Source of the DNA: Oceanispirochaeta crateris
GTDB taxonomy: Bacteria > Spirochaetota > Spirochaetia > DSM-2461
NCBI RefSeq assembly: GCF_008329965.1
Contig: NZ_CP036150.1
Coordinates: 806,001 to 870,000 of the forward strand
Direction of reading: 5' to 3'
Length of the DNA stretch: 64,000 bases
The notes under the pieces were generated by a model. The model saw only the letters and a program-made list of their open reading frames with translations, did not search any database and was not told where the DNA came from. The translations under genes were made by a program, and so were the position numbers. Every line of letters begins with the position of its first letter. Within the stretch, counting starts at the first letter, position 1. Shown here piece after piece: positions 46,136 to 62,829 of this stretch.

Positions 46136-46978
46136 ATGAAATTTAAAACCATTTTTTTCCTGTTTAACGGAATCATCCTGTTTTCCTTTCTTTTCATAGC
46201 TTTAATGCCCTTATTTGTTCTCGGTGCCGAATATACACGCATATTCTGGGGAGAAAATTGGTTCCTTGCTCTTTTGTTTTTAATCTTTATATCGGTACTT
46301 GATGCCTATTTCATGATCAACTGGAAAATGTTTTCACTCTTGGAAAAAGAAGATTGGCCGGGATTGACCTCTTATCTTGAGACAGAAATATATGAGAAAA
46401 AGCGACTCAGCTCCCGAAATATCAGAATGATGGTCAATACATCCCTCACAATTTCTAATCTGGATAAAATTATTCGTCTTGAAAAAGAGGTTAGTGAGAA
46501 GAAACCGAGTTTACTGAGCCGCTATGGTGCCATGCTTGGGATTCCTTATTTGCTGAACCAGAACAAGGAGGAGGGGAAAATATATTTCAAGGACTGTATT
46601 GCCCAGAGTTCCGCCAAAGATTTGCCATGGCTGGAGTGGTGTTATTCTTTTCTTCTTCTGGCAGATCAGAAACTGGATGAAGCAAAAACATATCTGTCTT
46701 CCCTTTCTGCTCAGACAAAGGACTCCATACTAAGACTCCTTTCTCTTTATCTTTTATCCACAATATCAGGCAAAGCTCAAGATGAAGCTCTGGTTCAGAA
46801 TAAAAGATCCTTCATAGAACAATATCCCGATAGGCAGAGCCTTGAGAAAGATGTATTAAAAAGTAAAAATAAAAATATTGTGGTTCTACTTCTCTCCAGC
46901 GTACTGGACGACAGTCAGAACTGGTTGTACGATACAGTTTCTGAAAATAATGTAGAGGAAATAAACAATGGTCATTAG
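46136..46978 (+). CDS. Membrane protein with TPR-like cytoplasmic part
   Basis: 280 residues from the ATG at 46136 (AGGAG 8 nt upstream; the TTG just before is in frame). Two transmembrane helices occupy residues 6-30 and 42-62 (LFLIFISVLDAYFMINW). The remainder is soluble and helical, with a repeat-like region (GKIYFKDCIAQSSAKDLPWLEWCYSF, LLADQKLDEAKTYLSSL) reminiscent of TPRs. Family unknown. A TATAAT at 46098-46103 lies upstream. It overlaps the aminotransferase start by 11 nt. Confidence 0.72.
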   Translation: MKFKTIFFLFNGIILFSFLFIALMPLFVLGAEYTRIFWGENWFLALLFLIFISVLDAYFMINWKMFSLLEKEDWPGLTSYLETEIYEKKRLSSRNIRMMVNTSLTISNLDKIIRLEKEVSEKKPSLLSRYGAMLGIPYLLNQNKEEGKIYFKDCIAQSSAKDLPWLEWCYSFLLLADQKLDEAKTYLSSLSAQTKDSILRLLSLYLLSTISGKAQDEALVQNKRSFIEQYPDRQSLEKDVLKSKNKNIVVLLLSSVLDDSQNWLYDTVSENNVEEINNGH

Positions 46979-55753: not shown

Positions 55754-57633
55754 TTAAATTCCAAGAACATTTTGGTCGATTCATCGATGATCTCTCCTGC
55801 AGGTGGAAACTGAAAGACAACCCAACCTTCCCCTTTTATACTGACAGGAATGCTGCTTCCCTCAAGGGCTGCCATGACTTCTCGCTTGGATAAGCCTGAA
55901 AAGTCAGGAAGTTCTGTTCCTATTTCAATTTGTTGTGGTTTTGTGAGACGAATCTTTCCGTCATGGGTCAAAACAGTATTCCCCTGAATTGGTATCCCAT
56001 AGTAGGGGGAGAGACTTTCGGCAAGTTCTTTAACGATGGGAGAGGCTATTCTACCCCCGTAAATGCTCTGTCCTTTGGGAAATTGCAGGATGACATATAC
56101 AATAAGTTTTGGATCTTCTGTTGGAAACAGAGCTAGAACTGAAGACATATAATCTGTATCCGAATAGGTTCCTGTTTCCGGATTAATCCGCTGGGCAGTT
56201 CCCGATTTTCCTGAAATCCTCAACCCCGGTACCTGGGCTCTTCTGACCGTACCTTCCGGGGATGAGACAACCTGCTCCATCATAAGGAGAATGCTCTCTG
56301 CCACTTCCGGAGACAGCACCTCTCTGACGGCTTCTCTTTCGTATTCTTTTACAATCTCACCCGAAGGGGAGACGACTTTTTTGACTATTCTTGGTTTTAA
56401 CAACTCTCCGCCGTTGGCAAAAACCGTTGCGGCCGTAATCATTTGCATGGCAGATACACCAATTTCCTGACCTATCGCCATGGTCGGTTTTGACCGGACA
56501 GACCATCTGGAAGGATCAGTGAGTATCCCATTGGATTCTCCCGGAAGAGGTATGCCTGTCTTGCCGCCAAACCCAAAGTTTTTAAGCATATTGTAATATT
56601 CTTTCTGTTCTACGGTGTCAGAGGCCAGGGCAGTTCCCACATTGCTTGAATGAATCAGGATATTCGTCGTATCCAGTACGCCATAATTCCCCAGATCTGT
56701 AATGGGAGGAATCTTATACTTCTGAAAAATTTCAGGATTATATCCACCTCTTGTATCAAACTGATCGTCAGGTCTGATGCCTCCAAGCTGCATAAAGCTG
56801 GCCAGAGAAAATATTTTCATGACCGATCCCGGTTCATAAGTGAGTGTAACAGGAAGATTATTTCTCTGAGCAGCTGTGTATTTTGAAAAATTATTGGGAT
56901 CAAAGGAGGGGAGGGACACAAAACTGTAAAACTCCCCTGTTTCGGCACCCATGACGAGGATCATCAGCCCTTCGGGTTTATGCTCCTCCATGGCCCTATG
57001 GGCTATTTGTTCGGTTATATACTGAGTGTTGAGGTCTATGGTCAGAAAAATATCATTGCCATATAAAATTTCATCTTTGTTTGTACTGATTTCTGGAGGT
57101 GCCAGAACCTGGTTGAAAGTGTATTCAATTCCATCCAGGCCAATGTTGTCGGTTCCAACATAACCAACAATATGTGATGCCAGATCCTTTTCTGGATAAC
57201 TGCGGCCCTGTTCCGGTTCCAGACGGATTCCAGGGAGTGATCCGGACTGGATCATTTCATTCACAAGCTTCGATTCTGTCGGAGATATTTGTCTTTTTAT
57301 ATAGAGAAATCCCTGACGGGAGGAATCATTAAATCGGTATAAAAGTTCCTCTTTGTCCAGTGATAGAGCATCCGCTAGGAGAGAGGCCGTTTTCTCACTG
57401 TCTTTGATTTCCGGTAGCCAGGCTGTGACGGAATCAAGTCTCGTCTGGATGGCCATGAGTTTTCCATTCCTGTCATAAATCTCTCCCCGCTGTAGCTCTG
57501 GAAATACTGGAGTATCCAGAGGATTATGAGGTGCGCTTACAAGCATGATTCTTGCATATTGAACCACAAGGATCATTGTGAAAGACAGAAGTATGATAAG
57601 AAATAAGCGGAAGCGCTTGTTTGTGGTATTCAC
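55750..57633 (-). CDS. ftsI: Penicillin-binding protein 2/FtsI-type transpeptidase with PASTA domain
   Basis: 627 residues starting at GTG 57633, overlapping the lepB stop (GTGA). An N-terminal signal anchor is followed by a dimerisation domain (residues 40-220, RGEIYDRNGKLMAIQ) and the transpeptidase: SxxK in EPGSVMKIF near 266, SxN in SSNVG near 326, KSGT in SGKSGTAQRI near 478. A single PASTA domain (about 560-627, ELPDFSGLSKREVMAAL) ends the protein, as in some spirochaete and Gram-positive FtsI/Spo-type proteins. It cross-links septal peptidoglycan. A function other than division (for example PBP2-like) cannot be excluded. Other division genes are not adjacent. Confidence 0.9.
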   Translation of the reverse strand: MNTTNKRFRLFLIILLSFTMILVVQYARIMLVSAPHNPLDTPVFPELQRGEIYDRNGKLMAIQTRLDSVTAWLPEIKDSEKTASLLADALSLDKEELLYRFNDSSRQGFLYIKRQISPTESKLVNEMIQSGSLPGIRLEPEQGRSYPEKDLASHIVGYVGTDNIGLDGIEYTFNQVLAPPEISTNKDEILYGNDIFLTIDLNTQYITEQIAHRAMEEHKPEGLMILVMGAETGEFYSFVSLPSFDPNNFSKYTAAQRNNLPVTLTYEPGSVMKIFSLASFMQLGGIRPDDQFDTRGGYNPEIFQKYKIPPITDLGNYGVLDTTNILIHSSNVGTALASDTVEQKEYYNMLKNFGFGGKTGIPLPGESNGILTDPSRWSVRSKPTMAIGQEIGVSAMQMITAATVFANGGELLKPRIVKKVVSPSGEIVKEYEREAVREVLSPEVAESILLMMEQVVSSPEGTVRRAQVPGLRISGKSGTAQRINPETGTYSDTDYMSSVLALFPTEDPKLIVYVILQFPKGQSIYGGRIASPIVKELAESLSPYYGIPIQGNTVLTHDGKIRLTKPQQIEIGTELPDFSGLSKREVMAALEGSSIPVSIKGEGWVVFQFPPAGEIIDESTKMFLEFK

Positions 57634-58133
57634 CTGTGATTAATTCCACCAAAGACGTTTATAACTTTTCCCCTTATAGAATCCATTGAGATACAGCCAT
57701 AATCCCTTGAGTCTACGGAATGATAGGGATTGTCACCCAGAACCAGAACTGTATTCTCTGGAACAATCTTAATATCACTCAGAAGATCCTTTTGTCTGGA
57801 TGTAAGAAAATATCTTTCATCCCCAATGAGAAGCCAACCCGTTGAATCAATCAAAATTGGTTCTCCAGGTAGAAGTCTGCACCGTTTAACAACCAGTTTA
57901 TGATCATAGGGATTCTTAAAGACTACTATATCTTCAACAGAAGGTTTTGTCATGTTTAGAAAAGGAATCCGGTAGGCAAATTTGCTCACCAATATGGTCT
58001 GACCATGATGAATTCCGGGTTCCATTGATATTTCCTGCACCTGCAGAATATCGAAACAGGAGAACCATAGAACAGCCGCTGCCATGACCGCGGCTGCTAT
58101 CCCTCCGTAGTAAACAATAGTTTTGTGAATCAT
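57630..58133 (-). CDS. lepB: Signal peptidase I
   Basis: 167 residues, one N-terminal transmembrane helix. The Ser-Lys dyad is seen as QEISMEPG (Ser36) and KLVVKRCRLLPGEP (Lys83), with box E GDNPYHSVDSRDYG. It removes signal peptides on the outer face of the cytoplasmic membrane. It is compact, resembling Gram-positive-type SipS enzymes. The first gene of the lepB-ftsI-maf run. Spirochaetes often have more than one signal peptidase I; this may be a secondary one. Confidence 0.92.
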   Translation of the reverse strand: MIHKTIVYYGGIAAAVMAAAVLWFSCFDILQVQEISMEPGIHHGQTILVSKFAYRIPFLNMTKPSVEDIVVFKNPYDHKLVVKRCRLLPGEPILIDSTGWLLIGDERYFLTSRQKDLLSDIKIVPENTVLVLGDNPYHSVDSRDYGCISMDSIRGKVINVFGGINHR

Positions 58134-58191: not shown

Positions 58192-59286
58192 ATGATTGTG
58201 ACAGCCAACAGGCAGGACATTGAAGTGTCCCAGCTGAAAAAAAAGAACCATAAAAGAACTCAGGCCTCATTTGAAGGATTTACACGACTTTCTACAGGAA
58301 AGAGTTCTGAATCCTCATTATTTACAGGGATCAGTCCCTTTATGACTGTATTCCTCTTTTCTCTGTGTTTTTTCTTTTTCATCCTTGGAACTGAGATTCC
58401 CTATAAGCATACTTTTTACTATGGCAATCTGCGGAACCTCAGTCTTCCAGGTGAAACTCTTCTCTCACAAGTCGAAATTAAAACCTTGAAGGCCGAGGCG
58501 GCTGTCACTCTTCCTTACATGGCTGATGAAAAAAATATGATCCTATGGGATGTACCGAATCGGAAATATAGAATGACTGATTCAGATAGGCTTTCTTCAC
58601 TGAGTCAAAGATACTCAATCAGTATCAGTACAATCATCAGTTTTAATAAACTTGAAAACATTCGCCATGTTAGGGAAGGGGATCTCCTAATCCTGCCGGA
58701 AATTGATGGAATATTGTATACAGTCAAAAAAGGAGATTCGCTTGAGTCTCTGATAAAAGAGTATGATCTTGATAGGAGCCTTCTTGTGAGGTATAACCCA
58801 TTCATCCCCTTGGAGAATGGGTTGTTAAGGGTAGAGACCGATCAGGAATTATTTCTGCCTCAAGTTTCGTTGGATGAAAATGAGATTAGAAGTAAAACAG
58901 GTCAGCTTTATGTTTTTCCTATCAAGGGTAGAATCCTAAAACCCTTTGGTGAATACAGAGATTCGGTGACCCAAATAGAAACATTTCATAACGGTATAGA
59001 TATATTGGGAAATATCGGTGATCCCGTAAAAGCCTCTTTTGGTGGAACTGTTATCTCTGCCGGATTTAATAATTCCTATGGTAATTTTATAGTGCTGGAC
59101 CACAGGAACGGATATAAAAGTCTCTATGCTCATTTGAGTGTTATTTCAGTACAAAGAAATGATAAAGTCTTACAGGGTGAAATGATAGGGGAGGTGGGCA
59201 AAACTGGTTATGCTCCAACTGCCCATCTTCATTTTTCCTTGTTTAAAGAGAAGAAAAGTGTTGATCCAATGGACTATCTACATTAG
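58192..59286 (+). CDS. LysM- and M23-domain peptidoglycan peptidase
   Basis: 364 residues. A signal anchor lies around 50-68 (MTVFLFSLCFFFFILGTEI), two LysM-like modules at about 137-165 and 178-208 (LSSLSQRYSISISTIISFN, YTVKKGDSLESLIKEYDL), and a C-terminal LytM domain: HNGIDILGNIGDPVKASF (first His/Asp ligands), YAHLSV and HLHFSLF. It should be periplasmic and cleave peptidoglycan cross-links. The start follows GAGTAGAGAAT, a weak site. Divergent from lepB. Confidence 0.93.
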   Translation: MIVTANRQDIEVSQLKKKNHKRTQASFEGFTRLSTGKSSESSLFTGISPFMTVFLFSLCFFFFILGTEIPYKHTFYYGNLRNLSLPGETLLSQVEIKTLKAEAAVTLPYMADEKNMILWDVPNRKYRMTDSDRLSSLSQRYSISISTIISFNKLENIRHVREGDLLILPEIDGILYTVKKGDSLESLIKEYDLDRSLLVRYNPFIPLENGLLRVETDQELFLPQVSLDENEIRSKTGQLYVFPIKGRILKPFGEYRDSVTQIETFHNGIDILGNIGDPVKASFGGTVISAGFNNSYGNFIVLDHRNGYKSLYAHLSVISVQRNDKVLQGEMIGEVGKTGYAPTAHLHFSLFKEKKSVDPMDYLH

Positions 59287-59309: not shown

Positions 59310-59329
59310 TTATCCACAGGTTATCCACT
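59310..59329 (+). promoter_or_regulatory. Tandem DnaA-box-like sites
   Basis: TTATCCACA (59310-59318) is a perfect strong DnaA box; TTATCCACT (59321-59329) matches 8 of 9. They are in direct orientation 11 nt apart and lie just before the small peptide's ribosome-binding site. Confidence 0.55.
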
Positions 59330-59346
59330 TCAGGAGGTTCTTGTTC

Positions 59347-59478
59347 ATGAGAAAATTGGTCTTCTTTATCATAGCCCTTATGGCTTTGTTTAATCTAATC
59401 AGAGCTTTTGCTACTTATAGCAATCAGACCATCCCTATGGAAACTATGGACGTTCTTCAGGAAGATCCTGAAAACTGA
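59347..59478 (+). CDS. Small exported peptide (43 aa)
   Basis: An open frame of 43 codons preceded by CAGGAGG 9 nt upstream. It starts with a near-perfect signal peptide (MRKLVFFIIALMALFNLI, RAFA cleavage-like), leaving a mature peptide of about 21 residues, TYSNQTIPMETMDVLQEDPE, acidic and without Cys. It may be processed and secreted or be a membrane microprotein. No family can be named. Its 5' region holds two DnaA boxes. Nearby genes are an M23 peptidase (upstream) and a VOC protein (convergent). Confidence 0.65.
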   Translation: MRKLVFFIIALMALFNLIRAFATYSNQTIPMETMDVLQEDPEN

Positions 59479-60087: not shown

Positions 60088-62829
60088 TTAGGCTCCGTGA
60101 CAGTTCTTGTACTTTTTCCCACTGCCGCAAGGACAGGGATCATTCCGTCCAACCTTTTCGGCAGTTCTTCTCACCTGCATATTTTGGGAATTTGCTTCGG
60201 CGCGCTCTCCGGATTTTCCCGGTGCAAAACTGTTTACACCATTATGGGATGCCTTGATGGGTTGCTGGTTTCTTTTGGGATAGGATTTGTCCGGTGCATT
60301 ACGGACAATGACTCGGAAAATTTTCCTTGCCAGGGTTATCCGTATGTCATCCATCATCTGATCGAATATTTCAAACCCTTCGTTTTTATATTCAACCAAA
60401 GGATTTTTCTGTGCATAGGATCTGAGATATACGGCCTCTCTTAAGGAATCCAAATTTTCCAAATGCTCTTGCCAGCGGTTATCTAGGTGTTTCAGATACT
60501 CATAGCGGATAAACTGATTGAGCTGTGTTTCTCCAACCAGTTCTTTCTTATCTTTCAGATCCTTCTTAAGAAAATTCACAAGATTGGTCTGCCACTCTTC
60601 CAGAGAGAGAGACTTCCAATCAATATTCTCATCGGCGTTGAAATTAAAATTCTCTTTGAGACGGTCCATTAAGCGGGCTAGAGCTTCCTGTTCATCCTGT
60701 TTGACATCACTCTTGTAGTCTTCCAGGAGGATGGTCACAATCTCTTCACCGGTTTCTATGATTTTCTTTGTAAGGTCTGTTTCAGAAAGAATTTCATCTC
60801 TTTGCTGGTAAATAGAAGTTCTCTGCATACTGAGTACATCATCATAGTCCAGAAGATGTTTTCTGATTTCATAGTTGCGATCTTCCACACGTTTCTGGGC
60901 TTTTTCGAGAGACTTGTTCAGTAATGAGTGATGAAGAGGTTCATCTCCTTCCATGCCTAAACGGGCCATGGTTTTCTTGAAGCTCTCTCCGCCAAACAGG
61001 CGCATAAGATCATCATCGAGGGAAATATAGAATTGTGAAAATCCCGGGTCTCCCTGACGGCCGGATCGTCCTCTGAGCTGATTATCAATACGTCGGGATT
61101 CATGACGTTCTGATCCAATCACATACAAACCACCAAGCTGACGAACTTCTTCATTCTGAGCTCTCCAGGTCTTGTATTCCTTCTCAATCGCCTTTTTAAT
61201 CTCTTCTTCTGTGGCATCGGAACCTGCGGCTCTGATCGCCCTGTATTCAGGGTTTCCACCTAGCTTGATATCCGTACCACGACCAGCCATGTTGGTGGCT
61301 ATGGTGATGGAGTTTTTAGCTCCAGCTTCAGAAATGATCAGAGCTTCTCTGTGGTGATTTTTAGCATTGAGAATCTCAAACTTTACTCCTCTCTTTCTAA
61401 GAACGGAAGCCAGCTTTTCAGACTTATCAACTGATACTGTACCAACGAGAATGGGCTGACCAGTTTTATGAATCTTAATAATATCGTCACAGATTGCATT
61501 GAATTTATAGTCTTCATTGAGATAGATGATATCATCTTCATCGACTCGGTTTACGGGTCTGTTGGTGGGGATCACCACCACTTCAAGGCCATAAATCCGT
61601 CCAAATTCTCTGGCTTCTGTATCGGCCGTTCCGGTCATCCCTGATATTTTGTCATACATTCTAAAGAAGTTTTGAAAGGTTATACTTGCAAGGGTTCTGT
61701 TCTTCTTGGCAATTTTAATCCCTTCTTTGGCTTCTATGGCCTGGTGGAGACCATCAGAGTAACGACGACCAGAAAGAATTCTTCCTGTAAATTCATCGAC
61801 TATCTGTACTTGACCTTCCTGAATGACGTAATCCACATCATTATGGAAAAGCTTGTGAGCCTTCATAGCCTGGGTAAAGTAATGGATATACTCGAAGTTT
61901 TCTTCATCAAAAAGGGAACCGGTGATATATTTGCGGCTGATGAGCAGTTCTTCAATCCTGTTCATACCTTCATCGGTAAAAACTACTTTCTTGCTTTTTT
62001 CATCCAGTTTATAATCGCCTTTAGGCTGTATTCCCGTGATAGGATCTTCTACTGGATAGTCTCCAGTTGCCGGATCTTTTTCACATTCAGTGAGGAACTT
62101 TACAAGTTGATTCACATTGAAAAATTTGCTTGTATCTTCTTGAACCGGGCCGGAAATAATCAGTGGGGTTCTGGCTTCGTCAATCAGGATGGAGTCGATT
62201 TCATCGATGATACAGAAGGGATGATTTTTTTGAGCCTTCTTATCCATGCTCCAGCGCATATTATCTCTTAGATAATCAAAACCGAATTCGTTGTTCGTTC
62301 CGAAAGTGATATCCTTGCTATATTCTATTTGCCTGGTTTCGGGATCCATGTCGGAAAGAATCACACCAACGCTGATGCCAAGGTAGTCATAAACCGGTTT
62401 CATCCAGGCTGCATCCCTTGAGGCGAGGTAGTCATTTACCGTGATGATATGAACACCCTTTCCCGCTAAAGCATTCAAGTAAGCAGCGGTTACACTGGAC
62501 AGAGTTTTTCCCTCTCCAGTTTTCATTTCCATGATTTTTCCCTGATGGAGGACAATCCCCCCCAGGAGCTGAACATCGTAGGGACGTTCGCCCAGTGTTC
62601 TCCGTGCAGCTTCGCGAGCCAATGCAAACGCTTCGGGGAGAATCTCATCCAGAGACACTCCAGCGGCAATCTTCTCCTTGAATTGAAGAGTCTGTTCTTT
62701 AAACGCCTCTTCAGGAAGATTAATTGCCCACAGTTCTTTTGCATTGATTTTGTGAAGAGTAGGAAGCAGTTGTTTCAGATCTCTATCCTGTTTTGATCCT
62801 AGGATTCGAGCTATTATCTTATTTGCCAT
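60088..62829 (-). CDS. secA: Preprotein translocase ATPase SecA
   Basis: 913 residues. It drives proteins through SecYEG. Walker [12 protein letters not shown] near 105, DEAD-box [18 protein letters not shown] near 208, the PPXD domain, NBD2 motif [15 protein letters not shown], and [26 protein letters not shown]. The C-terminal SEC-C zinc motif [13 protein letters not shown] near 897-910 binds SecB/ribosome and metal. Full length. The ATG at 62829 has no ribosome-binding site; a TTGACG-17-TACATT promoter ends 6 nt before it. Confidence 0.98.

Follow-up and report, generated by a model that had tools for sequence, protein, structure and literature searches.

Two DnaA boxes standing in tandem before a small gene, in a part of the Oceanispirochaeta crateris chromosome remote from dnaA, raise the question of whether DnaA controls that gene, is held at the site without effect on it, or does not act there at all. 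The window that we analysed is a stretch of 64,000 nucleotides (G000:C1 806001-870000) of a chromosome assembled as a single contig of 4,012,482 bp. Re-reading the coordinates from the sequence confirmed the original prediction of one perfect and one 8/9 box, which start 11 nt apart with GG between them, as well as that of a good ribosome-binding site and a small frame after the boxes (Table 1). Both boxes have the same orientation, their 2-bp gap lies within the 2-3 bp spacing of double DnaA boxes, and both are good matches to TTATCCACA. Box 2 ends 17 nt before the ATG, within the leader. The dnaA gene is encoded at G000:C1 3118199-3119557, about 1.76 Mb from the boxes by the short way round; there is therefore neither dnaA nor oriC in the vicinity, as had also been stated. 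A consensus search for a sigma-70 promoter at the boxes gave no match, and this candidate was rejected.

Table 1. Features of the locus, in positions of the window.
Feature	Position	Strand	Evidence
Signal peptidase I-like gene, divergent from the M23 gene	57630..58133	-	Pfam S26 2.1e-22; NCBIfam sigpep_I_bact 94.9 bits, cut-off 47
LysM + M23 peptidase gene, ending 60 nt before the micropeptide gene	58192..59286	+	Pfam M23 2.7e-30, LysM 7.1e-11
DnaA box 1, TTATCCACA, 9/9	59310..59318	+	Sequence match
DnaA box 2, TTATCCACT, 8/9, 2 bp after box 1	59321..59329	+	E. coli-type double DnaA box
Shine-Dalgarno sequence (AGGAGG) of the micropeptide gene	59332..59337	+	Sequence
43-aa membrane micropeptide gene, MRKLVFFIIALMALFNLIRAFA..., stop TGA 59476-59478	59347..59478	+	Homologues; sequence profile
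secA, convergent to the M23-micropeptide unit	60088..62829	-	Open reading frame

A lone box is not unusual in this sequence: the window contains two copies of TTATNCACA, and 1.9 would be expected. Apart from box 1, the window has one perfect TTATCCACA, at 46754-46762, which is a single box with no partner after it. Allowing up to one mismatch, TTATCCACA is found 32 times at positions 1-64000 (19.3 expected), a number reached in none of 100 shuffles, and perfect copies number 65 genome-wide against 16 for the reversed pattern. The pair, by contrast, exceeds what chance would give. A perfect box followed in tandem by one with at most one mismatch, at 9-20 nt, occurs once in the window, and was absent both from twenty sampled 20-kb stretches of the same chromosome (400 kb) and from 60 windows simulated with a first-order Markov model. 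The arrangement TTATCCAC-N(0-30)-TTATCCAC was retrieved three times in 4.01 Mb, against none for the reversed control. An unbiased double-box pattern, TTATCCACANNTTATCCACA, matched 13 genome sites with up to three mismatches (reversed control, one), among which the present boxes rank joint second with a single mismatch. Seven of these sites have at most two mismatches, and six of the seven are located within 3.113-3.129 Mb, the dnaA region, or at 3.449 Mb, leaving the boxes studied here as the only such site away from both clusters. The other two double-box sites show the same 11-nt tandem.

The double-box sites elsewhere deserve a description of their own. Across the 26 genomes of the family, TTRTCCAC-N(2-4)-TTATCCAC was detected 13 times (reversed pattern, none), 11 of them with the same 11-nt period. 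Besides the micropeptide locus, the pattern precedes a small transmembrane frame and a recC-like gene in five genomes (G000, G003, G004, G005 and G006), adjoins an EPSP-synthase-family gene in three (G000, G009 and G012) and occurs in two further places, in G008 and G009. The first of these settings corresponds in O. crateris (G000) to a conserved tandem DnaA-box cluster at G000:C1 3448829-3449083 (L009, about 2330-2584), lying in an intergenic stretch of about 590 nt, with orthologous tandems in the other four genomes. This cluster is a candidate for a second DnaA locus or for part of the origin. At G000:C1 3128687-3128911 (L008, about 2188-2412), a perfect double box, accompanied by a third box, comes after the stop of the EPSP-synthase-family (MurA-like) gene and before an inverted repeat with a run of T's behind it; the two other genomes with a double box beside this gene belong to other genera. 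Sampled GC skew changes sign at 1.30-1.35 and 3.20-3.25 Mb, the origin-like flip falling between dnaA (3.118 Mb) and the 3.449-Mb cluster. Since that flip, located by comparing the stretches at 3.20 and 3.25 Mb, is nearer dnaA, we do not claim 3.449 Mb as the sole origin.

In Escherichia coli, DnaA binds in vivo chiefly to boxes that come in pairs with a gap of 2 or 3 bp, according to the sections consulted of Stringer 2024 (PMC11317965). There, a double motif is matched by 15 of 16 ChIP-seq regions, one base added to a 3-bp gap lowers binding, and at purH a 7/9 box next to a perfect one suffices. The double boxes of purH, polA and mutH/DARS2 described in these sections resemble the present pair in their common orientation, their 2-3 bp gap, their position upstream of a gene and their tolerance of an imperfect partner. 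The two cases differ in the target: the E. coli regulon as given there comprises nucleotide synthesis, replication, repair and RNA metabolism, whereas the candidate target here is a cell-wall-linked microprotein. In our judgement, DnaA probably binds the pair in O. crateris.

The gene behind the boxes belongs to a family that is almost certainly real. The micropeptide matched no Pfam model at E<=0.001 and no NCBIfam model at E<=1. Searching the 26 genomes of its own family (f1) with the one sequence retrieved homologues in 13 genomes at E<=1, 12 of them behind an M23 gene and one, a weak match (E 0.24), elsewhere. A profile search extended this to 15 of the 26 (the match in G020 being due to chance), and in a sample of the phylum 13 of 392 genomes gave matches, that in G180 likewise by chance. 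With a wider profile, 103 of 394 genomes sampled from the class gave a total of 104 matches, all of which were inspected: 76 are stand-alone peptides, 17 are the N-termini of long forms linked to M23 genes, and 11 are unlinked N-termini of other proteins. The 28 long-frame matches were examined singly, with the long form L117 counted once, and the 11 unlinked ones, most of which are N-termini of the lipoprotein or signal-peptide kind, were left out of the family count. Of the stand-alone copies, 73 are encoded directly behind a homologue of the same M23 protein and on the same strand; the three that lack such a neighbour all come from genus g48. For comparison we used 76 loci (75 stand-alone copies and L117, the remaining stand-alone copy, G472, being added separately), which cover 21 numbered families and in which the gap to the M23 gene ranges from 8 to 284 nt. 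The class-sample profile search found no peptide in g3 and g6, two genera of the same family as O. crateris; in five g6 genomes without it, the convergent M23 gene and secA are immediate neighbours, separated by -1 to 53 nt.

What kind of peptide this is can be read from the distribution of conservation. The conserved part comprises residues 1-21 (MRKLv...A13...F-I-N/R-A-Y), with A13 present in 74 of 76 sequences; entropy is 0.2-2.7 bits at positions 1-21 and 3.2-3.9 bits at positions 23-34. Three members from family f17 stop at residue 24 and end in ...NAYTPV, ...NAYTPV and ...NAYAAV. Because conservation lies in the hydrophobic N-terminus while the tail is variable, and because some members end at residue 24, the product is likely to be a single-helix membrane microprotein with a hydrophobic N-terminal segment and a short tail that varies. 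With a disposable signal peptide, the pattern would be the reverse. The emphasis of the original prediction on an exported peptide with a signal peptide is probably wrong, given that the hydrophobic segment itself is conserved, whereas the tail varies or is lacking altogether. A secreted signalling peptide, cut after A20-F21-A22 by the neighbouring signal peptidase, would agree with the positive N-terminus, the hydrophobic core and the AxA-like end seen in many members, and a signal peptidase I-like gene is indeed encoded two genes away. However, the family has no conserved mature part behind its hydrophobic segment: the would-be mature part is the variable one, and cleavage would leave almost nothing of the 24-aa members. 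We regard secretion as very unlikely.

The membrane microprotein and the M23 peptidase appear, from their shared gene order, to form an old unit of this spirochaete class. Downstream of the micropeptide gene, a glyoxalase-like frame runs in the opposite direction, like the frame that follows, which we take from its sequence to be SecA. A secA homologue is convergent in 43 of the 76 loci. SecM-like control of secA was rejected as a candidate, as secA, in each of the 43 loci showing it, is convergent and not a downstream gene of the same orientation. The gene linkage, on which this proposal is based, makes it possible, if tentatively so, that the micropeptide is a partner of the M23 protein. Small bitopic membrane proteins such as AcrZ and CydX regulate larger membrane proteins; the micropeptide is like them in its size, its single hydrophobic helix and its linkage to a possible partner, and differs in its sequence and its putative partner.

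In 17 genomes (families f73, f75, f77, f78 and f79), the slot behind the M23 gene is occupied by a protein of 350-368 aa. These long forms (L117, L167-L171 and L174-L184) begin with the micropeptide segment, in which M1, L11, A13 and R19 are invariant. Scored with the profile of the stand-alone peptides, the 17 N-termini all reached 26.5-47.4 bits, whereas none of 4,393 background N-termini exceeded 8.0; the latter were taken from this genome alone, and L117 was also part of the training set. The simplest reading is that micropeptide and long form occupy one orthologous slot, whose product would have been fused or truncated. Behind the shared segment, the middle part of the long forms is weakly bactofilin-like and is followed by several hydrophobic, presumably transmembrane, segments. 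The Pfam bactofilin model (PF04519) matched 8 of the 17 at E<=0.1 (best 0.0026), and four long forms among the matches listed scored 13.7-18.4 bits against a cut-off of 27.9; neither the long forms among these matches nor the micropeptide, which matched no Pfam model, can thus be assigned to PF04519. A PDB search with the long forms gave nothing useful. Partnerships between bactofilins and M23 endopeptidases are established elsewhere, as the available portions of the reports on BacA-LmdC (PMC10945521) and Borrelia bb0246-bbbG (PMC13393453) indicate, which makes a role as M23 partner plausible for the micropeptide. The likeness to these systems, as far as those portions describe them, lies in a small partner gene adjoining an M23 endopeptidase gene; the difference is that the micropeptide has no bactofilin domain. 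Moreover, the true bactofilin genes of O. crateris sit elsewhere, two of them (G000:C1 264989-269355) beside another M23 gene in an arrangement like that of bb0246-bbbG.

The boxes have a far narrower distribution than the peptide. In all six genomes of genus g1, to which O. crateris belongs, the micropeptide gene begins 60-63 nt behind the M23 gene. The leader block reads TTATCCACA-GG-TTATCCACT in O. crateris, TTGTCCACA-GG-TTATCCACT in G004 and G006, TTGTCCACA-GG-TTATCAACC in G002, CAGTCCACA-GGC-TTATCCGCT in G005 and TAGTCCACG-AG-TTAACTACT in G003. Box 1 matches at 8/9 in the three genomes with TTGTCCACA and at 6/9 in G005 and G003; the pair reaches 6/9 + 7/9 in G005, the nearest sister (M23 protein 73% identical), and 6/9 + 6/9 in G003. 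Pair scores in the six congeners are 17, 16, 16, 15, 13 and 12 out of 18, the best-scoring gap being 2 or 3 bp in every case (these two gaps were tried). Across the box block, the six share a mean pairwise identity of 83%, compared with 46% for the sequence preceding it and 67% for the one following. The M23 proteins of the congeners are just 45-73% identical to that of O. crateris, so the box block is constrained. Coincidence, which the original prediction had allowed for, is disfavoured by this contrast between 83% and 46%, by the rarity of the pair and by its E. coli-like 2-3 bp spacing. TTRTCCAC-N3-TTATCCAC is present at the micropeptide gene in three of the six congeners (G000, G004 and G006), eroded in the other three and absent in other genera. 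Among the 76 loci of the class, a box with at most one mismatch occurs within 120 nt upstream in six, four of which belong to genus g1, and tandem pairs occur in three. Outside g1, none of 70 loci, including the long form G513, has a pair in these 120 nt, and two have a single box, which is about chance level. Of the two elements whose conservation the original prediction proposed to check, the peptide has proved conserved across many families of the class, while the boxes are confined to one genus, good in half of its genomes and eroding in the other half. The micropeptide is thus conserved far more widely than the DnaA boxes, and the pair, being confined to g1, is a genus-level addition to an older gene rather than part of the class-wide unit.

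With the micropeptide as described above, the conserved block could nevertheless be there for the start of translation or for some factor other than DnaA, and resemble DnaA boxes only incidentally. The block is continuous with the Shine-Dalgarno sequence; GGAGGTT is unchanged in the six congeners, and the conserved stretch also takes in TTCTT, so part of it may serve translation. Furthermore, invariance is limited to TCCAC and GTTA-C and does not extend over the entire boxes, which match poorly in G003 and G005. However, spacing and rarity fit DnaA too well for an incidental likeness, the 11-nt tandem recurs at the two other double-box sites, and there is no convincing RNA structure: a consensus fold of the six leaders contains 7 weak pairs, none with a two-sided change. 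A structured RNA leader was rejected on these grounds, as was a coding frame in the leader, which indels in G005 and G002 disrupt. Overall, we place the incidental reading on the unlikely side. Much the weaker proposal is a titration site, also raised originally, at which DnaA would be held without effect on the gene. The double box is high-scoring, and titration has been reported for chromosomal boxes in E. coli in the part consulted of PMC12371093, but the same text describes the E. coli boxes as enriched near oriC. The present locus has two boxes only, unlike a datA-type cluster with many boxes or enrichment at oriC; it is a single pair among 65 perfect boxes, far from dnaA, and titration does not explain its placement right before the Shine-Dalgarno sequence. 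We judge it very doubtful.

The best explanation of the locus, which we regard as evenly poised between right and wrong, is a murein-hydrolase-linked membrane microprotein under genus-specific DnaA control. The box pair with its rarity, spacing and pattern of conservation, the peptide family and the gene linkage are observed, while DnaA binding, the direction of control, translation and the partnership are what we infer. The microprotein would serve the product of the preceding gene, the LysM-M23 peptidoglycan endopeptidase, as a membrane anchor or as a regulator. In genus g1, this unit would have gained a double DnaA box right before the Shine-Dalgarno sequence. As box 2 ends within the leader, 17 nt before the start codon, the simplest effect of DnaA bound there as a dimer would be repression or a block, with transcription initiation or elongation into the micropeptide gene being hindered. 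The level of the microprotein would then be tied to DnaA-ATP and hence to the replication cycle. That DnaA regulates the micropeptide gene is a real possibility that falls a little short of probable. Against the explanation as a whole stand the poor boxes of G003 and of the nearest sister, G005, the replacement of TTATCCACA by TTGTCCACA in three congeners, the three g48 peptides without an M23 neighbour, and genus g6, where M23 and secA have stayed adjacent in the five genomes that lack the peptide. A bolder version appears rather unlikely to us. In it, DnaA would directly gate a class-wide microprotein controlling the M23 endopeptidase, and the start of replication would thereby set the time of murein opening in this genus. 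The microprotein itself would correspond, in stand-alone form, to the membrane anchor of the bactofilin-like protein that other spirochaete families have in this slot.

Genes as small as 24-50 codons are regularly overlooked, and the titles and abstract openings of the spirochaete literature that we surveyed report neither this micropeptide nor a DnaA-controlled cell-wall gene. The micropeptide gene described here is found in many families of one class, in a fixed slot behind a cell-wall hydrolase, which makes the pair of hydrolase and microprotein directly testable. If bound by DnaA, the genus-specific double box would directly connect the initiation of replication with the remodelling of the cell wall in spirochaetes.
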